Assembly (NCBI GenBank): GCA_031266805.1 | Contig: JAISAH010000111.1 | Location: 1-64,000, forward strand | Source: Gracilibacteraceae bacterium | GTDB taxonomy: Bacteria; Bacillota; Desulfitobacteriia; Desulfitobacteriales; Syntrophobotulaceae | DNA length: 64,000 nucleotides | Direction of reading: 5' to 3' | Part shown: piece by piece, positions 1 through 17,198 of the stretch | Layout: every line of letters starts with the position of its first letter | How positions within the stretch are numbered: the first letter of the stretch is position 1 | The notes under the pieces: model-generated | What the model saw: only the letters and a program-made list of their open reading frames with translations | What the model was told of the DNA's origin: nothing | Databases searched by the model: none | Program-made: the position numbers and the translations under genes

Positions 1-107
1 GTTGGAACATCACCGCCATACATAAGTTGTCACTTTCAGGTGTTCTCATGGCGGTGTGTTCCTGCCGATAGCCGCGCTCCCTGTTTCGCTTTGGCGCGGT
101 CGCGCGT

Positions 108-3100
108 CTATCCGCCGAAAGCGTAGAGCTTGGTCTCCGGGGTGATGGCCCCGAAATCCGCGCCCGCGGGATCGTTCCCCGGCAGGAGGACGATGGCGGC
201 CTTAGTCTGGGCGGCGAGGGCGGAGCCGGTCAGGGCGTCCACCAGAGTATTCCCGTCCGCCGTGTAAATATTCGTGTACTCAAAGTTCAGGGCGTCGCGG
301 ACGGCCTTGTTCGTCTCATAGCGCGTCGCGCCGTAGAGCCTTGTGGCCCCGGCCACGTCACGCACCAGAGTTGGGCCGCCCAGAATATAGACCTCTCCCG
401 TCGGCGCGCCGCTGACGCTGCCATCAGGACTGGCTATTTGGATAGCGTAGCCGTTGGCGGCGGCGAATGAAGCCGCGCTGACGGCGTCGGCGATAGCGTT
501 ATAACCGACGATGAATGTGCCTTTCGGGGCGGTCAGTTTCGCGCCCACCAGTTCCGCCGTCTCAAAACGGCTGGCCCCGCGTAAAGTCTCAACCGTGAGA
601 CCGGGCAGCGCCGCCTGCAGCGCGCCGATCACATCTTGGCTGATGGCGCCGACGGCGTAAACTTTCTTAGCGCCCAGGCGCTGGATCTCCGCGACCACAG
701 CGGGGTCAAGGGTTCCGGTACTGAGGAGGATCGGGGCTTTTTCCTGACCGGCCAGCGGCGCGACGGCCAGCGCGTCGATCAGGTTATTCTGCCCGCCGGG
801 AGCGAGGATTACCGCCTCGGCGCTCGTCCAGCCCTGACGGGAGATGGCGACGGAAGTTTGCACCCGGTCCGCGCCGCTGATATAACTGAGGCTGGCTTTG
901 CTCACCGTGATCGGCGCGGCTGCTTCCGGAATGGCGGTTGTCGCCAAGCCGCCGCCCCCGTTCGGAGAAGGTTTCCCGACCGGCGGGTCTGGCGTGACCG
1001 CCTTTTCCACATAGCCGACCGCGTAATAGGAGAGATGATTGGTATAAAATGTCACTCTGCTAGTGTCCGAGTTGTAATCCACCGCCCCCGGCATGGGTTC
1101 GCTGTCATACCAGACTGTAATCGTGACCCGCGCCGGGTCTATGCTGTCCGGCAGCGCGTATGGCAAAGAGATTGTGAGATTGCCGCCGAAATTCCGTATC
1201 TGTTCTTTGGTGTCGCCCTCCACATAGTAAACGCTCAGGTCAAACACTTGGGCGCCCTTGGCGCTTTCCGGCAGCGCGTCCAGCTCTGCCTGTTCCTGCG
1301 CCTGCGCCGGCTTGCTGATAACGACGTTCACGTCTTTACCCGCACCCGCCTGCGCGCGTGCAGTGCCGAGCGTCTCCCGGTCAAAGCTGATGCTGCCCAC
1401 CGGCGATGTGATGGTAATGGTTTCCAAGGCGCTGTCTTCTTTCTCCAGTTCTTCGAGTAAAACATCGAGCGCCGCCGGCGGCAGGGCCACATAGACCGCG
1501 TCTACAGCCGTCACGCCCTCCGGCAGGGTATCAGGTAAATTCACGCTGATTTCTAGAGTTGTAGTGTTGTTCCCCACGGCCTCTTGCACCGCGTCTGTGA
1601 CAAAATCCTCGTCTACTGTGACCGCGGCGGCCGGAGCGCCGTTATCGCCCGTGATGATATCCTTCGGCGCGACTTCTATCGGGACGCTCGTCGGGGCTTC
1701 ATCGGGAGGCTGAGGCGGAGCGACCGCTGGCAGCAAAGCCTCGATAGCCGCCAGAATCGCCGCCGTCCGTGTGTCGATCATGGTCTGGGTCACGCCCTCC
1801 AGGGTTTTCAGGGTCTGGCCTGCCCGAACGCCGGCTAAGAGAGCGGCGTAAGACTCGGGGCTATAGGCGCTCGCGTTTGCGCTCACGTTCCCGGCCGCCG
1901 TTATCGCCGCGTCCAGAGCGGAGGCGTCAGGCGCCTCGCCGTCCAGGTCGATCCCGCTCCAGTCGATCCACAGCCGGGCCGGCTGGTTAGCCGACGCGCC
2001 CATGATCGGGACGTTCACGTAGACGTCCGTCCACTCCACGCCCGGCGTGACTTCTATCCCGAGTTCTTTCGGGTAAAGCCAATCCTCACCCGTGTTGAAA
2101 CTGTCTTTAGTATCGTAGTGGCTGTAAACCTCAGCCGGGACCAGCTTATAAGTTACAAGGATCCCGCCGTCATCTTTAACAACATTTTCCATTTTGGAAA
2201 ACTCTTTTAAGGAACCCTGCTGTCCCAAAAAGGTTAGGGGTTGGAAGATCAGGCGCAATTCGACTTTCCCATTTTCGACCACGAGCTTAGACTGAGCGTG
2301 GTCGATGGCGTTGTTGCCCATGGAATATTGATTCTGCGTATAGTGCCACAGTTCGGTCTTGTTCGCGAGGGAATATTCGCCGTCGATGAGGCCGACCAGC
2401 AGATCGTCCTCGGCGGCCAGCGCCGTCTGAGCGGCCTCGAGTGCGGCGATCTGCGCCGTGATTTGCTCCGCGCTCAGACCGCCGGCCAACAGCGCCGCCT
2501 TAGCCGCTTCGACGGCGGCGGTCAGCGCCGTGTAAGAACTGGCGATATAGCCTGTGCCCTCTATCGCCTCAGCCGCCGCGACAGCGGCTTCCAGCGCCGC
2601 CTCGTCCGCCGCCGGCCGCGCGGCCTCAGCCTCGGCCAGCGCGGCGGCCACGGCTTCTTTGATGCCGTTACTGGCCAACGTCGCGCCGGTTATGGCGTCC
2701 ACGTCCTCCAGACTCACGCCGCCAGCGGCCTGAGCCGTCATGATCTGAGCGGGCACGGAAGCCGCGGTCTGCCCGCTCACCACACCCGTGCCGCCGTTGG
2801 TAAAGGCCATGGCGAAATAGCCGGGGGTCTGAGCGTGCGTTCCGGCCGTGATGCCGAGGATACGCCTGTCGCTCACTTCTACATTGATTTCGATCGCGGC
2901 GCTGCCGTTGCCGGCATAGCCCCGGCCCACGCCCTTATAGACGCCGGGGCCGTAGATGACCGGCCAGTCGCTGTCGTCGATATCCGTTTCCGTCTCCCGC
3001 GCCAAGGCTATAGCTTCCCGCAGCGCGGTTTTTGCCGTCTGGATCCCGTCTGAATCCAAACCGGTCTTATTATATTGAGTCTGAGCCGCGCTGATCGCCG

Positions 3101-5201
3101 CCCGCAGATCCATGACTTTCTCCAGCGCGACTGTTTCCAGCGCCCGCCGCGCTTCCTTCAAGGCGGCGGCCAAAACGTTCTTGTCATAGCCGGCGAGAGG
3201 GTTCTCCCCATCAAACAGCGTGGCTGAGGTGACGACTAGCCGAGCATAGCGCGAGCCAAATTCCATAATAGGGATGTCCATTAATATACGGTATTCGTCT
3301 CTGGCGCTGGGTGACGCTAGTGGTAGAATTATACGTTTCGGAAATTCAATGTTGTAATTCTCATGGATATTCTGTGATACCCCATCCACATCGTTGGCGA
3401 TGATTTCCTCGTCTGTAAAGTAAGAGAGGTGTTCTGCGGGCACATTGTCATGATATATTTCGCTCAAATAACCCTGAAGCGTTTCTCCCACATAAACAGA
3501 TCTGTTCTGCAAATACAGTAGCGGTGTCTGGCCAGCGACCGTCTCAATGTAGCCCCATTCATTCTCAATGGCGGTGTTGCCCATAGAAGGTTGATCTTCG
3601 TGATCATTCATAATAGCGACGGAAACTCGGTACAGCCCGGAAGGAAGATTATCCGTCCTGATGCCGGGGACCATCTCGCCGATAAAGTATGAAGCGTTCA
3701 ATGCTTTTATATCCTTTGTCGAGACCTCAGCAAAGAGTCCGTCCTCACTAACGGTAAAAGGGACGTTATAGTTGATTTCTTTATCGGCGGTCAGCCATCT
3801 GTGAATTCGGATTTTATTTGTATCCCATTCCGCCGGTATGGGGAAACAGACTGTGACGTCATTCACAGGAGCAAAAGTATGCCCTGCTGTGTTGAGTAGC
3901 CCAAGTGCGTAAACACGGTATCGATCCGTGTCGCTACCGCTGAGGGCAGCCATTGCGGCAAAATCCCCTGGACGCATATTGGGAAGCGCCGGATCGTATT
4001 CGCTGTATTGCTCAGCAGAAAAATCCGCACTAGCTGGAATAGCGGTGCTGAGATAGCGGAGAGCTACGCCTGATTCGGTTTGCTTGACTTCCGCGCTGAT
4101 AGGTACATAACTTAAATGTAGCCAGGCATTAGCAGTTTGTGAGACATCTTTATTATTGTAGAGAGTTTTTGTATGGAGTTTTAAGTATACACCAAAAATC
4201 AGATCGGTGTAGTCCATATCCAATTCAAAAGTGCTCGCGTCTATTATTTCCACATTGGCCCACGCCGCCCCCATCTGCTCATTTAGGTAATATCGAGGGT
4301 TTGCCTCCGAAGCAAGCTTCCTGCCGCTCGCTTTTTGTAGAGTGAACTCATCATCAGACTCTTTGAGCTTGAAAACAGCCTTGAGCTTCCCTGCGTCGTC
4401 CACCGCCACCTCAGCGCCCGCGAGGAAATCCGGCACAGTGTAGGCTGAATTGACTCTAGTCGCTGTATTGTCAGTGCCAGTTCCGGTATATATATTAGGG
4501 TTAGTCCAAAAGCAACTCATTTCGTAAAAGCCTTCATCCAACGATCCATCAGGCAGGGAGATAGCCACGTCGGTATTGAAGACTATACTTTGGTCAACAA
4601 AGCTATAACCTGCTGCAGTAATAGCGTCTGAGTAAGCCCTAGTCCATACCTCGGTCGGTTTGCTACTCAGCGAAAATGTGAGAAGCCCTGTATCCATCGT
4701 TTCATCGTCGATTTCTCGCTGCACACCACTTAGGTAGTATTCATTATTTATCGCGTCTATCGTTCCTTTGTCCGTCAGTTCCACCAGCAAGTCCGCCGGG
4801 CAATCAAGGGTTCCCGGTTTGAGTTTCGCCAAATCAGTATAGGCGCTACCATAACTGTCTTTTATTGCGCTGTGACAGTCCGGGTCAACGATGGATATGA
4901 AGTCAATAACACTGTACGAATTGTATTGCAGTGTGATTGTGTATTCCCCCGCGCCGTCACTATATACAAGCGCGCGCTCATTGAACTGAATACGTTGGCT
5001 GGCTTGGAGCGCCTGTGGGGCGACTACTCTGTATAATTGAATCGGAACAGAATAATACCCCGCGGCCAAATGTTCAGCCACAGGATCGCCACTACCATCG
5101 GCCCAAACAGGTGCAAGGCTGTAACTAAACGGTTGGGCTAGAACTATTACCATCAAAAGCACAGCCATTTTGCGCAACAACGGCAAGTTGCTATTTTTCA
5201 T
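108..5201 (-). CDS. Large secreted surface protein: signal peptide, several NEAT-like domains, FMN_bind domain, C-terminal CWB2 cell-wall-binding repeats
   Basis: 1697-aa ORF; N-terminal signal peptide (LLRKMAVLLMVIVLAQPFSYSLAPVWA); NEAT-like blocks (GLYRVSVAIMNDHEDQPSMGNTAIENEWG; GEYSLANKTELWHYTQNQYSMGNNAIDHAQSKLVVENGKVELRLIFQPL); FMN_bind-like YKGVGRGYAGNGSAAIEINVEVSDRRI...DAITGATLASNGIKEAV; CWB2-like ISGADRVQTSVAISRQGW...RLYGATRYETNKAV. Confidence 0.85.
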   Translation of the reverse strand: MKNSNLPLLRKMAVLLMVIVLAQPFSYSLAPVWADGSGDPVAEHLAAGYYSVPIQLYRVVAPQALQASQRIQFNERALVYSDGAGEYTITLQYNSYSVIDFISIVDPDCHSAIKDSYGSAYTDLAKLKPGTLDCPADLLVELTDKGTIDAINNEYYLSGVQREIDDETMDTGLLTFSLSSKPTEVWTRAYSDAITAAGYSFVDQSIVFNTDVAISLPDGSLDEGFYEMSCFWTNPNIYTGTGTDNTATRVNSAYTVPDFLAGAEVAVDDAGKLKAVFKLKESDDEFTLQKASGRKLASEANPRYYLNEQMGAAWANVEIIDASTFELDMDYTDLIFGVYLKLHTKTLYNNKDVSQTANAWLHLSYVPISAEVKQTESGVALRYLSTAIPASADFSAEQYSEYDPALPNMRPGDFAAMAALSGSDTDRYRVYALGLLNTAGHTFAPVNDVTVCFPIPAEWDTNKIRIHRWLTADKEINYNVPFTVSEDGLFAEVSTKDIKALNASYFIGEMVPGIRTDNLPSGLYRVSVAIMNDHEDQPSMGNTAIENEWGYIETVAGQTPLLYLQNRSVYVGETLQGYLSEIYHDNVPAEHLSYFTDEEIIANDVDGVSQNIHENYNIEFPKRIILPLASPSARDEYRILMDIPIMEFGSRYARLVVTSATLFDGENPLAGYDKNVLAAALKEARRALETVALEKVMDLRAAISAAQTQYNKTGLDSDGIQTAKTALREAIALARETETDIDDSDWPVIYGPGVYKGVGRGYAGNGSAAIEINVEVSDRRILGITAGTHAQTPGYFAMAFTNGGTGVVSGQTAASVPAQIMTAQAAGGVSLEDVDAITGATLASNGIKEAVAAALAEAEAARPAADEAALEAAVAAAEAIEGTGYIASSYTALTAAVEAAKAALLAGGLSAEQITAQIAALEAAQTALAAEDDLLVGLIDGEYSLANKTELWHYTQNQYSMGNNAIDHAQSKLVVENGKVELRLIFQPLTFLGQQGSLKEFSKMENVVKDDGGILVTYKLVPAEVYSHYDTKDSFNTGEDWLYPKELGIEVTPGVEWTDVYVNVPIMGASANQPARLWIDWSGIDLDGEAPDASALDAAITAAGNVSANASAYSPESYAALLAGVRAGQTLKTLEGVTQTMIDTRTAAILAAIEALLPAVAPPQPPDEAPTSVPIEVAPKDIITGDNGAPAAAVTVDEDFVTDAVQEAVGNNTTTLEISVNLPDTLPEGVTAVDAVYVALPPAALDVLLEELEKEDSALETITITSPVGSISFDRETLGTARAQAGAGKDVNVVISKPAQAQEQAELDALPESAKGAQVFDLSVYYVEGDTKEQIRNFGGNLTISLPYALPDSIDPARVTITVWYDSEPMPGAVDYNSDTSRVTFYTNHLSYYAVGYVEKAVTPDPPVGKPSPNGGGGLATTAIPEAAAPITVSKASLSYISGADRVQTSVAISRQGWTSAEAVILAPGGQNNLIDALAVAPLAGQEKAPILLSTGTLDPAVVAEIQRLGAKKVYAVGAISQDVIGALQAALPGLTVETLRGASRFETAELVGAKLTAPKGTFIVGYNAIADAVSAASFAAANGYAIQIASPDGSVSGAPTGEVYILGGPTLVRDVAGATRLYGATRYETNKAVRDALNFEYTNIYTADGNTLVDALTGSALAAQTKAAIVLLPGNDPAGADFGAITPETKLYAFGG

Positions 5202-5404: not shown

Positions 5405-5893
5405 TTACTGCGGATATCTGGCCAAGTAGTAGGTTTGAGCGTTATCATGGTAGAAATTCAGGTAAAAATCAGCTTCGATTGCTGAAATTGAATCTTCGGC
5501 GTCGTCTATTACTACGTCAATAAGTTCAAAATCAGAGAGATTAAAGACAGCTTCTCCATTGCCAGCACCTTCATCTTCCGCATAAACAGACGTGCTATCC
5601 ACTTCAATATCTTCTACATAGGCGTCAGTGTAGTATACTAGCGTGTGCTTGAAATAGAAAGTAACTGTTCCATCTACAGGGTTGTCATAGCCCTTAACAA
5701 CTCCCTGACCATGGGGAACAGGGACAATATCGGTGCCGTTGTCATAGAACAGATAGTATACAGGAGCAGTGTCACTTCCGGCTGTGGGATTGTCGGGGGC
5801 GCCCCAAGTTCCCGCGAAGGCGGGGGCGGCGATCAGGCTGAAAGCCAAGACCGCGGCGACGAGCAAAGTGGTGATTTTGTGGTTTTTCAACAT
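5405..5893 (-). CDS. Small secreted protein of unknown function (162 aa, signal peptide)
   Basis: Complete ORF with clear signal peptide (MLKNHKITTLLVAAVLAFSLIAAPAFA) and AGGAG upstream of ATG; sits between NEAT-protein gene and regulator. Confidence 0.75.
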   Translation of the reverse strand: MLKNHKITTLLVAAVLAFSLIAAPAFAGTWGAPDNPTAGSDTAPVYYLFYDNGTDIVPVPHGQGVVKGYDNPVDGTVTFYFKHTLVYYTDAYVEDIEVDSTSVYAEDEGAGNGEAVFNLSDFELIDVVIDDAEDSISAIEADFYLNFYHDNAQTYYLARYPQ

Positions 5894-10989: not shown

Positions 10990-11769
10990 TCAGACCGGCA
11001 GCACCCATATCCGCTCACCGTCGGCGCGCACGGGCAGGCGGACGCCGTACATGGCGAAAACCGTCTCATCTGTGACGACCTCACGCGGCGGGCCCTGGGC
11101 CAGCACCACGCCGTCTTTCAGCGCGATCACTTCGTCCGAGTACACGGCGGCCTGATTGATGTCGTGCAGCACCATCAGGATCGTGATGCCATGCTCCGCG
11201 TTCAGCGCGCGGATCAGGCGCAAAGTTTCCACTTGGTAGCGAATATCCAGAAAAGTGGTGGGCTCGTCCAGAAACAGAAGCTTGGGGTCTTGGGCCAGAG
11301 CCATAGCGATAAACGCCCGCTGTCTCTGCCCCCCGGAGAGAGTGCCCATCGGCTGCCGGGCGATGTCCGCTATCCCCGTCGCCGCCATAGCCCAGGCCAC
11401 CCGCGCCCCGTCCTCCGCCGACCGGCTGTGAAACGGGGAAATATGCGGCGTTCGCCCGTAAGTGACCAGCTGTTCCACGCTCAGGTCGTCCGGCGCCGTG
11501 TTTTTCTGATGGACGATGGCGGCGCGTTTGGCAAAATCTCGCAGCCGGAGAGCGGCTATGTCGCGGCCGTCCAGCAAGATCCGCCCGGCGTCCGGTTTCA
11601 GGTTTTTGGTCATGAGCAGGAGCAGCGTGGTTTTGCCGCAGGCGTTCGCTCCCATGAGAGTGGTCACGGCGCCGGGCCGGACCGTGAAACTGACGCCGCG
11701 CAGCACGGCGGTCGCCCCGTAGGCGAAGGAGAGGTTTTCCACTTGCAGTCTATGGCTATGAGCGGCCAA
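10990..11769 (-). CDS. FecE/FhuC-type ABC transporter ATP-binding protein (iron/heme complex uptake)
   Basis: Walker A LMGANACGKTTLL, signature LSGGQRQRAFIAMALAQDPKLLFLDEPTTFLDIRYQVETLRLI. Confidence 0.85.
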   Translation of the reverse strand: MAAHSHRLQVENLSFAYGATAVLRGVSFTVRPGAVTTLMGANACGKTTLLLLMTKNLKPDAGRILLDGRDIAALRLRDFAKRAAIVHQKNTAPDDLSVEQLVTYGRTPHISPFHSRSAEDGARVAWAMAATGIADIARQPMGTLSGGQRQRAFIAMALAQDPKLLFLDEPTTFLDIRYQVETLRLIRALNAEHGITILMVLHDINQAAVYSDEVIALKDGVVLAQGPPREVVTDETVFAMYGVRLPVRADGERIWVLPV

Positions 11770-12751
11770 CGCGGCGCCCCCTTTGCAGCAGGATGATGAA
11801 AAACGGCCCGCCCAGCACGTTCATCAGCACCGCGGCCGATATCTCCGCCGGCGCGGCGAGGACGCGCCCCAAAGTGTCCGCCGCCAGCAGGATAAAGGCC
11901 CCGAGCAAGACGCAGCAGGGGGTGAGGATCCGGTGATCGGAACCCACGAGCCGGCGGGCCATATGCGGGGCGATCAGGGCCAGAAAACCCACCACGCCGA
12001 TGATGGCGGTCGCGGCCGAAACCAGCAGAACGGCGACGGCGGAGATGAGACCGCGCAGGAAATCGGCGTTTACACCCAAACCGCGCACAGTTCTGTCTTC
12101 CAGAGCCAGAAGATTGCAGGCCGGAGCGAGCAGCACGGCGGCCGGCAGACCGCCCGCGGCGTAAAGGGCCAGTTGGCGGACGTCACTCCAGGAGCGCTGA
12201 CTCAGACCGCTGACCGGAGGGGAGACGCCGCCCGAGGTACTCATGCCGAACAAAGCCTCGGACAGTCCCGCGCATACGGCGCTGACCGCCACGCCCACGA
12301 GGATGACGCGCACGGGGTCCAGCGATCCTTTCCACGCCAGCCGGTATATGAGCAGAAAAGCCATAATTCCGCCGATGAAAGCGAAGATGGGTTTGGAGAA
12401 ATAGAGCATGGGGAAAAAAGCGGCGACCACAGCGGCGGTAAAGGCCGCGCCGCCGGCGATGCCGATGATGCCGGGGTCGGCCAGCGGGTTTTTCAGAGCG
12501 GCCTGCAGAAAGAGTCCGGAGGCCGAAAGCATCCCGCCCGCCAAGAGAGCGATGATAACGCGGGGAAAGCGCAGATCGTGAATAGCCGCCACCCGCGGGT
12601 CATAGGCCGTGAACAGGCCGTGCCACAGCTGCGCCCAGGTAACGGAAATGCTGCCTATCTTCAGGGACGCGAAAAAAAGGAGCGCCGTGAGCCCGGCGAG
12701 GACGGCGCAGACCAGCATGCCTGTCAGCAATTGCTTGCCGGCGGCCTTCAC
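11756..12751 (-). CDS. FecCD/BtuC-type ABC permease (iron/heme uptake)
   Basis: Typical FecCD sequence: DPRVAAIHDLRFPRVIIALLAGGMLSASGLFLQAALKNPLADPGIIGIAGGAAFTA; GVVGFLALIAPHMARRLVGSDHR. Confidence 0.9.
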   Translation of the reverse strand: MKAAGKQLLTGMLVCAVLAGLTALLFFASLKIGSISVTWAQLWHGLFTAYDPRVAAIHDLRFPRVIIALLAGGMLSASGLFLQAALKNPLADPGIIGIAGGAAFTAAVVAAFFPMLYFSKPIFAFIGGIMAFLLIYRLAWKGSLDPVRVILVGVAVSAVCAGLSEALFGMSTSGGVSPPVSGLSQRSWSDVRQLALYAAGGLPAAVLLAPACNLLALEDRTVRGLGVNADFLRGLISAVAVLLVSAATAIIGVVGFLALIAPHMARRLVGSDHRILTPCCVLLGAFILLAADTLGRVLAAPAEISAAVLMNVLGGPFFIILLQRGRRVGRS

Positions 12752-13650
12752 GCGGCGCTCTCCTCGTAGAAGAGGTCCTCCAGCTGATCCAGAGCCTCAG
12801 GCCAGAGAAAATTGGCGCTCATGCTAAAGATCTCATAGTCCAGGTCATAGACCCGCCCTTCCTGTACGGCGCGAAAATGTTTCCAGATGTCGTTTTCCAT
12901 AAATTCCCTGGCGAACATCTCTTTGACCAGATCCGGCAGGGCGTGGGCGGCGCACAGTATGATATCCGGGTCGAGCAGCAGCAATTCCTCCGTGTTCCAG
13001 TTTACGAAGCTTTCGGCCGGATCTGTGACCACGTTTACGCCGCCGCACAGTTCGACCAGATCGCCGATGTAGGAATTAGGCGTGCCCTCGATATAAGCGC
13101 CGGGCAGTCCCATGAGGATCAGGACGCGGGGGGCGGGGCGCCCGTCTTGTTTTAGCCGCAGCTGGGCGAGGCGGTCTTCGTATTCCTGCCGCAAGGCCCG
13201 CGCTTCCTCAGCCGCGCCGTATTTGCCGCCCAGGTAGTCGGCGCTTTCGTATAAACCCCGCACGCTGCGCAGATTCAGGAAGGTGGCCGGCAGGCCGGCG
13301 TTTTCGTAGCCGGGGGAGAGGCTTTCCGCCAAGGTGTCCGGCCCGGCTATTTCCGTGGGGGCCAGCAGTTTGATTTGTTCCATGTCGGGGGACATGGAAG
13401 CGCCGATGCGGGGGACGTCCGCGTAACGCGCGGGTAGTCCCGCGAGCGAGGGCACTCCCGCCAGTTCCAGTCCCAGGCGGTCGCAGATCTCCACCGTGGC
13501 GCGCGACGTGGCCATCAGGCGGTAGGCGGCCGCGCCGTCTTCCGCCAGCAGCGGCCCGGCCGGGTTTTGGTCCACGCAGCCGCCGCCCCCCAGCGCGATG
13601 AGCAGGAGCAGGAGCGGGAGCGCGGCCCGCGGCGCGCGCGGGATATTCAT
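12748..13650 (-). CDS. Periplasmic-binding-like lipoprotein of iron/heme ABC transporter (BtuF/FecB-like)
   Basis: Lipobox-like LALGGGGCVDQ; RATVEICDRLGLELAGVPSL, MSPDMEQIKLLAPTEIAGPDTL, DPDIILCAAHALPD; ATGA overlap with neighbours. Confidence 0.85.
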   Translation of the reverse strand: MNIPRAPRAALPLLLLLIALGGGGCVDQNPAGPLLAEDGAAAYRLMATSRATVEICDRLGLELAGVPSLAGLPARYADVPRIGASMSPDMEQIKLLAPTEIAGPDTLAESLSPGYENAGLPATFLNLRSVRGLYESADYLGGKYGAAEEARALRQEYEDRLAQLRLKQDGRPAPRVLILMGLPGAYIEGTPNSYIGDLVELCGGVNVVTDPAESFVNWNTEELLLLDPDIILCAAHALPDLVKEMFAREFMENDIWKHFRAVQEGRVYDLDYEIFSMSANFLWPEALDQLEDLFYEESAA

Positions 13651-14585
13651 GGTTTGCTCCTCCCGGCCCGCCGGGCGATCAGGACGCCGGCCAGCACCGC
13701 CGCGGCGGCGCCCGCCGCCAGAATCGCCCCTCCCGGCGGGTCGGCCGGGGCCGCGGGTTCCTCCGGTCCCTCCGGTTCGGTCAAATCGCCGGTCACATCG
13801 CTCGCTTCCGGCAGCGCGGCGGGGTCGTTCGTACTCGTTTCCGGCGGCGCGGCGACCGAATCATTCGCACTCGGTTCCGCCGGCGTTTCCGTTTCGACCG
13901 CCGACTCGCTTGCTGCCGGCGCCGATCCCGCCGGGGATCCCGTTTCCGCGGCCGGTCCCGCCGGCGCGGTCGTTTCCGCCGGCGGTTCCGGCGATTCCGC
14001 CGGCGGCGCTGCCGTTTCCGCCGGCGGGGCGGGCGGTTCGCTCGCTTCCGCCGGCGCCGCGGCCGGTTTGACGCTGACGATAAAATCCCCGCTCCCTTCC
14101 CGCAGGGCGTCGCTGACATTCATATAAAATTTCACGTCCCGTCCCATCGGCTCCACATACATCGCCCAAGAGATATAGCCGGTGAGCGCGGGGACGGCGA
14201 AGCGGTAATCCGCGGAATCCGCCGCCGCGTCCTCCATCATGATCCGGGGAGTGACGCTCTGGTAAGCGCCGCCCGATCCCTGCTGGACCCAAAGACGCAC
14301 ATCCCGCATGTTGCTCATGAGCAGGAGACGCACGGTCAGGTAGATCTGGCCGTTTTCGATCTCCGCCAGCGCGTCCTTATAGACGACGCTGCGGCACATG
14401 CCTTCGCCGATGGCGGTGTTCTGGCTGCCGCCGTCGTCGGTCAGCCCCGTGTCGGGGTTCAGGTAATAGGTGTTGGTCGCGGCCAGATAGGCCCCGTCCG
14501 CCGCGGCCCAGACAGGCGGGGCGAAGCAGGTCTGCGCCAGGAGCGCCGCCACCGCCAGATTCAAGATGATACGCTTTAACCGCAC
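13647..14585 (-). CDS. NEAT/Shp-like heme-binding surface protein with Pro/Ala-rich stalk and C-terminal TM anchor
   Basis: Signal peptide; NTYYLNPDTGLTDDGGSQNTAIGEGMCRSVVYKDALAEIENGQIYLTVRLLLMSNMRDVRLWVQ; P/A/E stalk; TM GGAILAAGAAAAVLAGVLIARRAGRSKP. Confidence 0.7.
   Translation of the reverse strand: MRLKRIILNLAVAALLAQTCFAPPVWAAADGAYLAATNTYYLNPDTGLTDDGGSQNTAIGEGMCRSVVYKDALAEIENGQIYLTVRLLLMSNMRDVRLWVQQGSGGAYQSVTPRIMMEDAAADSADYRFAVPALTGYISWAMYVEPMGRDVKFYMNVSDALREGSGDFIVSVKPAAAPAEASEPPAPPAETAAPPAESPEPPAETTAPAGPAAETGSPAGSAPAASESAVETETPAEPSANDSVAAPPETSTNDPAALPEASDVTGDLTEPEGPEEPAAPADPPGGAILAAGAAAAVLAGVLIARRAGRSKP
13741..14071. repeat. Degenerate low-complexity tandem repeat encoding Pro/Ala/Glu stalk
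   Basis: Recurring TTCCGCCGGCG / GGTTCC units; encodes EASEPPAPPAETAAPPAESPEPPAETTAPAGPAAETGS... Confidence 0.75.
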
Positions 14586-14625
14586 AGATGAAATCCCCTT
14601 TCTTTTTAGGACATTAGTGCCCGGT

Positions 14626-17070
14626 TCAGGCTCCCGGTTTAGCCCGCCGCCGCCTGATGATAAACCCAGCGGCCACGGCGGCCAGCGCCAAGGCTCCTAT
14701 CGCCGCGGCCTGAAGGCCGGCGCTCTGTTTCGGCGCCTGCTCGTTGACAACCGGCGCAGTCGCCGCGGCTGCGGGTTCCGCCGCTCGCGCCACCACCGGC
14801 GCCGCTTCCGGGACGGTCTCTTCTGCCGCGGCTTCCGTTTCCGTCTGGACCCTGACCGGCTCGGCGGCGGCGGGCGCGTCAGCGCGGACCACAGCCGGCT
14901 CGGGCGCCGCCGCGGCCGCCGGCGCCGTCACAGTCGCCGCCGCGGGCGGCGGTACAGGCGGCGGCGGAACTTTTGCCGCTCCCGCTACGAGAGCGTACAG
15001 GCTCAGATGATTGAGATCCACCTCATAGAAATCTTCGGATATCCGCCCCCTGATCAGCGTGGCCGTGCCGTCCGCGTTGACGCGGTAGCAAAGGACGCTT
15101 TCCGGGTCGTAGCCCGCCGGAATGGGTATGCGCAGCGTGATCAGCCCGTCCGGCTGAATGGCCTCGCCCTCCAGTTCCAAGCTGATGTCAAAGAGGGTGA
15201 ATTTGTCCCCGATCTCCGTAAGCGCTCTTTGCGCCAACTGATAGCCGGTACTCGCGCTTTCCGCGCCGATCTGGGCGACGACAAAGACCGCGCCTTCCGG
15301 CACCACGCCGGCGGGGGCCGTCAGGCGGATATTCGTCGTCTCATCCCTGAGCGCCGCGGTCGGGGCTTTGCTCGGACTCAAAGACGAATTGCCGTAAGCC
15401 ACGTTCTCGGTGGGATTCAGTTCCGCGTCGGCCGGGGCGGTTTTCACACTGGCCCAGTTGATACGGAACCGTGCTTCCAGCCATCCGTCCGTAGCCGCGC
15501 CCACCGCGTCCATCGGCGTGTAGGGGACTTTGATCCGCGTAGGCAGATACTCCGCAGAGACGTCGGGCAGGCTGATTTCAAACACTTTCAGGTAGATTAT
15601 CTCATGCTCCTCGCCGTCAAACTTTGTGTTGGTCGTAAAAGGGGCGCTCACCAATTCACTGGCCCCCTCCACCTCGGTGATGCCCGTGGTGTAGCCGCTC
15701 ACCTCCACGGGGTGGGTGGCGATATGCATAACGGAACTGCCGCCTTCCGTGATCACAAGCGCGGTTTTGTCAAAAGCGACGCTGCCCATGGAGGATTTAT
15801 TAAGTTCCGCGTGCCACAGATCGACATTCACATAATACCGGCCGTCCTGCGCCGGATCGACGGCGCCCGCGCCGCCGCCTGTGCCCGGCGTACCGGGGTT
15901 TACGGGTGTTGCCGCGGCCGGCAGCAGCGCGCTGAGCGCCGCCCGGACCGCCGCCGCCCGCTTGTCCGCCATATCCTGGGTGACGGTCAAAGCCGCGTTA
16001 CGGCTCACCAGCCATTCTCCCGCCGCCGTCGCGGCGCTGAGCGCGGCGCGGGACGCCGCCGTCCAGCCCGCGGCCCCGCTGCCGCCGGCTTCCGCCAGAG
16101 CGGCCTCCAGATCGGCGACGTCGGCGCGCTGGGCGCCGCCGCTCAGGTCAACCCCGCTCCAGTCCAGGCGCAGCCGAGCCAGCTGCGTGCCGGAGCCGGA
16201 GTTGATCTTCTCCATTACCGGCACGAATACTTCCACGATCACTTCTTCCTCGCCCGGGGAAACGGGAATGCCCAGCTCCCGCGGATACCAGAGTCCCTGA
16301 TGTATCGGGCCGTGGGCGTCGGTAAAACCTTCATACGTTTCGTAAACGGCGGCCGGCGTTTTATCGTAATGGCTGATATAGCCGCCGTCGTCATAATATA
16401 TGCGATCCACGCGGGCAAAGGTTTCCAGATACCCGGTCAGCCCGGCGGTGCTCAAAGGCTGGAAAAACAGGCGCAGTTCCGCCTTCCCGTCCGGGCCGGA
16501 AATCACCCGGCTCAGTTCGTGGGCGACGGCGGCGTGCCCCATGGAGGGGTTCGCGGGAACGCTGTAATTCCAGAGGGCGGTCCGCTGGGCAAACGGATGA
16601 TCGCCTGCGGGCAAAGCCTGCCGGTTTTGCAGGTCTTCGCTCAAAACCAGCGCGGCCTGCGCCGCCTTGAGCAGGGCGACCTGAGCGTCCGCCTCTTTCT
16701 GGGTCAGTCCCTCGCTTTGGATCGCCGCCTCGGCGGCGGCGACAGCCGTGCCCAGGGCCGCGAGCGACGTCGCTTCCGCGGAAGCCTCGGCGTCGCCATA
16801 CCGGGCCTGGGCCTCGGTTATAGCCTCCGCCAGCGCGGCCGTGTCCGCTCCGGGCACGTACACACCCGCGGCGGCGGCGCGCATTTCCGCCCGGAATGTG
16901 TCGTCCTCGGTTTCATAAACACCCTCCGGCTGTTCCGGCGCCGCGCCGTCTTCGCCCGGCGTCTGTCCGGCCCAGACGACCGGCAGCGGCATGATCGCCA
17001 GCAGGGCGAGCGCAAGCAGCAAACTCAGGCAGCAGCGCGCGCGGATCCCTTTTCTTGTAAACATACTCAT
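14626..17070 (-). CDS. NEAT-domain surface protein with C-terminal TM anchor (heme uptake)
   Basis: 814 aa, signal peptide; NEAT-like blocks RTALWNYSVPANPSMGHAAVAHELSRVISGPDGKAELRLFFQPL and GRYYVNVDLWHAELNKSSMGSVAFDKTALVI; C-terminal LQAAAIGALALAAVAAGFIIRRRRAKPGA. Confidence 0.85.
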   Translation of the reverse strand: MSMFTRKGIRARCCLSLLLALALLAIMPLPVVWAGQTPGEDGAAPEQPEGVYETEDDTFRAEMRAAAAGVYVPGADTAALAEAITEAQARYGDAEASAEATSLAALGTAVAAAEAAIQSEGLTQKEADAQVALLKAAQAALVLSEDLQNRQALPAGDHPFAQRTALWNYSVPANPSMGHAAVAHELSRVISGPDGKAELRLFFQPLSTAGLTGYLETFARVDRIYYDDGGYISHYDKTPAAVYETYEGFTDAHGPIHQGLWYPRELGIPVSPGEEEVIVEVFVPVMEKINSGSGTQLARLRLDWSGVDLSGGAQRADVADLEAALAEAGGSGAAGWTAASRAALSAATAAGEWLVSRNAALTVTQDMADKRAAAVRAALSALLPAAATPVNPGTPGTGGGAGAVDPAQDGRYYVNVDLWHAELNKSSMGSVAFDKTALVITEGGSSVMHIATHPVEVSGYTTGITEVEGASELVSAPFTTNTKFDGEEHEIIYLKVFEISLPDVSAEYLPTRIKVPYTPMDAVGAATDGWLEARFRINWASVKTAPADAELNPTENVAYGNSSLSPSKAPTAALRDETTNIRLTAPAGVVPEGAVFVVAQIGAESASTGYQLAQRALTEIGDKFTLFDISLELEGEAIQPDGLITLRIPIPAGYDPESVLCYRVNADGTATLIRGRISEDFYEVDLNHLSLYALVAGAAKVPPPPVPPPAAATVTAPAAAAAPEPAVVRADAPAAAEPVRVQTETEAAAEETVPEAAPVVARAAEPAAAATAPVVNEQAPKQSAGLQAAAIGALALAAVAAGFIIRRRRAKPGA

Positions 17071-17180
17071 GTCATCCTTAACTCCTTTGCCTTATAATAA
17101 AATCAATCCGTCGCGGGGAAGCGGAGGGAGGGGGAGGTATGTGACAAATTTCCCGCACACCCGCGGGGGAGTCGCAGTTT

Positions 17181-17198
17181 CGTTAGCATAAGCTAACG
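17181..17198. promoter_or_regulatory. Operator-like dyad upstream of the heme-uptake operon
   Basis: CGTTAGC-ATAA-GCTAACG perfect inverted repeat ~111 bp upstream of the first operon gene; core TTAGCATAAGCTAA matches 11/14 positions of the palindrome at 6530-6543. Confidence 0.5.

Follow-up and report, generated by a model that had tools for sequence, protein, structure and literature searches.

A wall-anchored clostridial protein joining Shr-type NEAT domains to a predicted flavinylated FMN_bind domain: a candidate for flavin-assisted heme capture

In the 64,000-nucleotide stretch of DNA analysed here (the window), which comes from an uncultured clostridia-like anaerobe (genome of 3.38 Mb, 95% complete with 1.5% contamination), we identified a gene for a predicted secreted, wall-anchored protein of 1697 amino acids in which Shr-type NEAT domains are combined with an FMN_bind domain (108..5201, minus strand; ORF list, Pfam and sequence). 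The reading we favor, tentatively and with a little less than even confidence, is that this is a Shr-type heme-capture protein of the cell wall whose covalent FMN would reduce heme held in bis-methionine pockets. The original prediction had proposed such redox-coupled heme capture, and its heme side held up in the bis-methionine Shr-type pockets, the heme relay encoded nearby and the recurrence of FMN_bind at NEAT heme operons; the reduction step we infer.

Domain architecture of the 1697-residue protein

The ORF at 108-5201 had been predicted to encode 1697 residues, and it does so on the minus strand, running from an ATG at 5201 down to 108; the plus-strand reading is full of stops. In order along the chain (all features on the minus strand), the protein has a signal peptide, recognized by inspection of the sequence (amino acids 1-34; 5100..5201), followed by a probable NEAT fold that does not carry the Ser-Met/Met signature (about amino acids 46-195; 4617..5066), a Shr-type NEAT domain with candidate ligands Met540 and Met646 (amino acids 515-668; 3198..3659), the FMN_bind domain (amino acids 748-860; 2622..2960), a FIVAR-like helical linker recognized by inspection and by similarity to an 814-residue protein described below (amino acids 862-934; 2400..2618), a second Shr-type NEAT domain with candidate ligands Met961 and Met1067 (amino acids 935-1092; 1926..2399), and three CWB2 cell-wall-binding repeats (amino acids 1438-1697; 111..890). 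The two Shr-type NEAT domains flank the FMN_bind domain. Pfam supported the FMN_bind domain (42.3 bits over amino acids 769-855, against a cut-off of 22) and CWB2 (PF04122; 82.9 bits in three stretches, cut-off 24.9), and these C-terminal repeats, together with the signal peptide seen by inspection, bear out the wall anchoring by CWB2 that had been anticipated.

NEAT-like domains had also been predicted, and Pfam NEAT (PF05031) scored below its cut-off (22.3 bits at amino acids 939-987; cut-off 32.8). We built a profile (A1) from 14 domains, two of them from the 1697-residue protein and the others from its ortholog, from the counterparts of the 814-residue protein and from further relatives; most were 20-48% identical to the first domain, with one ortholog at 83%. 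Across the 14 there were five invariant columns (G, S, M, M and A), and S26, M27 and M133 (A1 numbering) were unchanged in every one. Profile A1 matched the streptococcal Shr NEAT2 structure 9w5y with an E-value of 4.2e-22 over positions 2-147 of 153, and both invariant methionines aligned to chain positions 110 apart, like Met997 and Met1107, the heme ligands in the published structure (PDB 9w5y, PMC12796733). Because of this match and the aligned methionine ligands, amino acids 515-668 and 935-1092 classify by profile as NEAT domains of the Shr type, the bis-methionine kind, and not of the tyrosine type, and both very probably bind heme. A NEAT fold at the N terminus (about amino acids 46-195) is likely, as suggested by a low-confidence model from a three-sequence alignment (pLDDT 52, a hint of fold only) whose top matches included the IsdX2, Hbp2 and IsdX1 NEAT structures (probability 1.00, TM by target 0.66-0.75). 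Assignment of amino acids 215-510 as NEAT found no support in this analysis.

The flavinylation motif DAITGAT was exactly where it had been placed, at amino acids 835-841 (2679..2699, minus strand, read from 2699 down to 2679). By the published [S/T]GA[S/T] rule, FMN would be attached to Thr841, and the sequence makes flavinylation of the protein at this predicted site highly probable.

The gene stops 107 bases short of the contig end, and 119 bases there are identical to contig C102, which places an assembly break inside a CWB2 repeat; the last few hundred bases of the gene could be misjoined. The window (1-393) and C102 (L016:1-393) open with the same CWB2 3' end, 97.5% identical over 393 bases; assembly breaks occur at repeats common to paralogous wall proteins. 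A fragment of the sister-species ortholog is 88% identical and has the same FMN_bind-NEAT-CWB2 order.

Heme relay, flavin supply and a shared palindrome

On the minus strand at 10990-17070, the window encodes a complete Shr-Shp-HtsABC-type heme relay. It consists of a Shr-like 814-residue protein with two bis-methionine NEAT domains (14626..17070; Pfam and profile), a Shp-type cell-surface heme-binding protein (13647..14585; Pfam, and PDB 2q7a at an E-value of 1.7e-20), and, by Pfam, a heme-type substrate-binding lipoprotein of the Peripla_BP_2 family (12748..13650), a FecCD permease (11756..12751) and an importer ABC ATPase (10990..11769). The 814-residue protein belongs to the shp-htsABC operon. 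The 1697-residue gene does not: it is separated from the last relay gene by 5.8 kb that contain other genes. Relay gene order is identical in the sister genome G017; G018 and G016 have this order too, except that one additional gene separates the Shr-like gene from that for Shp. Upstream of the 1697-residue gene is one for a small secreted protein of 162 amino acids (5405..5893, minus strand; ORF list and comparison).

The genome has ten FMN_bind domains. Of apbE, whose absence had been named in advance as counting against the proposal, two genes were found (273.9 and 249.3 bits). One is the last gene of an operon on contig C97 with the order EcfA-EcfA'-CbiQ-PF07456-ApbE. PF07456 is the EetB family; in Listeria, EetB, FmnA and the Ecf ATPases together move FAD out of the cell to serve flavinylation (PMC9973259). 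The C97 operon holds the combination of an EetB-type FAD exporter with ApbE that is characteristic of Gram-positive, flavin-based extracellular electron transfer (EET). The second ApbE is encoded near a double-FMN_bind, FAD-binding, fumarate-reductase-like protein. A search for Rnf/FLEET genes had been proposed along with one for apbE; the EetB-type FAD-export module was found and RnfD, searched for in the genome, was absent. Just downstream of the FAD-export and ApbE genes, C97 encodes a 1776-residue protein with N-terminal CWB2 repeats (L020:2792-8122), in which Pfam gave no other domain.

Two FMN_bind/4Fe-4S membrane proteins are also encoded (L017:1284-4414 on C81 and L018:5798-7855 on C113). 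One is preceded by a twin-arginine iron-sulfur protein and a 99-residue gene, an order that recalls the RdhABC genes of reductive dehalogenases, and the other by a CRP-type regulator. These membrane proteins could pass electrons outward.

A motif scan found the palindrome GTTAGCATAAGCTAAC (17182..17197) 112 bp upstream of the Shr-like gene. Its 16-bp pattern, RTTAGCN4GCTAAY, occurs 15 times, against 0.25 expected, in 747 kb of loci that were chosen around such genes. In the whole genome there are four exact copies, and the reversed control gave none: besides the copy before the Shr-like gene, one lies 29 bp upstream of the EcfA...ApbE run, one 57 bp upstream of an FTR1 iron operon, and the fourth (C13:12697) beside purine-synthesis-like ORFs; those beyond the window are at C97:13161, C108:6558 and C13:12697. 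G017 has the FTR1-operon site without a mismatch. In G018 this site differs at one position, and two genes that combine NEAT and FMN_bind have exact copies in front of them, at distances of 305 and 260 bp. Several other clostridia likewise have the palindrome upstream of NEAT genes (L154, L157, L158, L161 and L202). One-mismatch copies, found 47 and 31 bp upstream of the NEAT and FMN_bind genes of C93 and C102, carry less weight since they are common genome-wide (24, against 15 for the control). The 1697-residue gene was itself considered as a bearer of the palindrome and rejected, having no convincing site. Scans of the window for Fur and DtxR boxes gave nothing convincing; a weak DtxR-like match at 17178 is what pointed to the palindrome. 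Candidates for its binder are a DtxR-type iron repressor and a winged-helix/NEAT protein.

The latter belongs to a family of about 280 amino acids, without a signal peptide, that has a winged-helix (MarR-like) N terminus and a C-terminal NEAT-like domain in which Ser-Met and Met-Pro are invariant. Members are found at L018:11522-12355 (contig C113 of the same genome), L043:12789-13649, L045:928-1854, L142:7980-8816 and L144:7031-7900, and further ones at L152, L153, L154, L157, L158, L159, L165, L166 and L167; all except the own-genome copy are near Shr, Shp or NEAT genes. The C-terminal profile had its best PDB matches in the NEAT domains of IsdX2 and IsdX1 (E-values from 4e-5 to 7e-4), and a structure model from two sequences was set aside (pLDDT 41). 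Its sequence suggests that this putative regulator is possibly a cytosolic NEAT heme sensor, of which we found no report in the literature.

The flavin-supply genes bear on an alternative in which the protein is a surface iron reductase or EET component; a link to flavin-based EET had also been raised in the original prediction. Here the FMN would deliver electrons to ferric iron or to some other acceptor, such as minerals or humics, to feed FTR1-type uptake or respiration, with the NEAT hemes serving as relay cofactors or being incidental. The palindrome is common to the ApbE operon and the FTR1 iron operon, the latter with an FMN_bind gene of its own, the PF07456-ECF-ApbE module is the one that serves EET flavinylation in Listeria, and several FMN_bind giants of this genome are wall-bound. 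We nevertheless consider this explanation unlikely, given the absent RnfD, the conserved NEAT heme ligands and the placement in Shr-Shp-Hts operons of G380 and G475 (see below), which indicate a heme substrate.

Recurrence of FMN_bind with NEAT in other proteins and genomes

The genome encodes three giant surface proteins in which NEAT is joined to FMN_bind: the 1697-residue protein, a paralog on C93 (NEAT at 43.7 bits and two FMN_bind domains) and a paralog on C102 (FMN_bind with NEAT-type domains). Of the four wall giants with FMN_bind, only the one on C140 has no NEAT. Several further NEAT and FMN_bind proteins occur in sister species. In one NEAT protein of G018 (C46; L041:1-4549), the FMN_bind domain at amino acids 882-973 has lost the flavinylation motif and reads INSAIGTS instead, a natural comparison lacking the flavin site.

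Among 83 genomes of the class, Shr-type NEAT domains were confined to the genus of the window and one other. The collection was scanned for homologs with sequences closer than profile A1, which was too divergent. Homologs from two metagenome-assembled genomes, one of Family XIII and one of Peptococcaceae (L074 and L075), share the NEAT scaffold and have no FMN_bind, which marks the flavin domain as an addition. The small gene before the L075 homolog weakly resembles the 162-residue protein (27% over 142 amino acids, E-value 1e-10), and L074 has a small secreted gene at the same place that is unlike it.

NEAT was present in 19 of 391 other clostridial genomes, and in five of these 19 an FMN_bind gene lay within 5 kb of a NEAT gene, against 0.58 expected (Poisson tail 3e-4, or 0.003 without G142, neither corrected for kinship); G142 was excluded from the second figure because its NEAT and FMN_bind proteins are similar to ones from the window's genus, which could be the result of transfer or of misbinning. 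In G380, the genes for a Shr-type protein, Shp, a binding protein, a permease and an ATPase come after that for an FMN_bind and NEAT protein (motif DVVSGAT). In G475, the position of Shr is filled by an FMN_bind and NEAT protein with an atypical motif (DAISNAT), and in G385 two NEAT genes and an importer are followed by a membrane-anchored FMN_bind protein as a separate member of the operon. These arrangements place flavin domains within heme operons, and FMN_bind was found in or beside NEAT heme operons in other genomes as well.

This recurrence also speaks to uncoupled module shuffling, by which FMN_bind would be common in the giant wall proteins of the lineage and functionally unrelated to the NEAT domains of the same chain. 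The C140 protein, the L074 and L075 scaffolds and the L041 domain without the motif are what such shuffling would leave. We rate it as rather unlikely, because independent lineages have FMN_bind inside or next to NEAT heme operons more often than expected by chance, as a separate operon protein in G385, and because NEAT accompanies it in most of the wall giants. It is very improbable that the 1697-residue protein is unflavinylated, fails to bind heme or owes part of its sequence to a chimeric assembly: its whole-protein NEAT score is under the Pfam cut-off and its gene ends at a repeat-broken contig edge, but the sister ortholog has the same domain order, the ligand and motif residues are intact, and the broken edge touches only the last part of CWB2.

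Proposed function and relation to known systems

Under the reductive heme-capture reading, the ECF-type exporter would supply FAD, and ApbE would attach FMN to Thr841. Electrons would come to the FMN from the membrane, with the FMN_bind/4Fe-4S membrane proteins as candidate donors, and the FMN, which the domain order suggests is tethered between two bis-methionine pockets and well placed to reduce captured heme, would reduce heme gripped by two methionines in the adjoining NEAT domains. The relay encoded 5.8 kb away, with its Shr-like protein, Shp and HtsABC-type importer, could then take over the heme. Heme can sit in methionine pockets in the ferric or the ferrous state, and isolated Shr has both forms; heme reduction could aid in pulling heme from its source or set its state for transfer to Shp. 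Counting against this explanation are the homologs without FMN_bind (L074 and L075), the lost and atypical motifs (L041 and G475), the C140 protein, which has FMN_bind without NEAT, and the lack of a convincing palindrome before the 1697-residue gene. We also counted against it that heme uptake by streptococcal Shr needs no flavin domain. To our knowledge, few studies have addressed how anaerobes deal with heme's redox state while capturing it at the wall.

Neither the domain families nor the Shr pathway is new. The protein is like Shr of the Shr-Shp-HtsABC system (PDB 9w5y, PMC12796733) in its bis-methionine NEAT domains, its surface location and the nearby Shp and HtsABC-type importer genes; it differs in having FMN_bind, FIVAR-like linkers and CWB2 wall anchoring, and Pfam (E 0.1) gave no match in it to the DUF1533-type hemoglobin-interacting domain of Shr. 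It shares an extracellular FMN_bind domain with [S/T]GA[S/T], and ApbE and an FAD exporter in the genome, with ApbE-flavinylated proteins (PplA, RnfG and multi-flavinylated proteins; PMC8238504), whereas here FMN_bind is fused to predicted heme-binding NEAT domains. The NEAT fold is common to Hal and IsdX1/IsdX2 of Bacillus, tyrosine-type structures that the N-terminal NEAT domains of the C93 and C102 proteins match, whereas the Shr-type domains of the 1697-residue protein have two invariant methionines in place of the tyrosine signature. Two major flavinylation surveys (PMC8238504 and PMC10979944) do not mention NEAT. In a 2014 NEAT survey (PMC4143258), the legend of Table S1 names FMN among additional features, which indicates that some NEAT proteins with an FMN domain are already listed there; that legend is its sole mention, and no functional conclusion is drawn from it in the main text. 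We found no paper in the open-access literature linking flavinylation to heme capture.

A broader claim, which we regard as possible though doubtful, is that flavin-powered reductive heme capture is a recurring clostridial add-on in or beside NEAT/Shr-Shp-Hts receptors, with one iron- or heme-responsive operator controlling FAD export and ApbE as well as the heme and iron importers. The putative winged-helix/NEAT regulator may be of importance equal to that of the main finding. With a flavin predicted to be tethered between two heme pockets of a single chain, electron-assisted heme capture is directly testable with purified parts and, if true, ApbE flavinylation would gain a role in heme nutrition.
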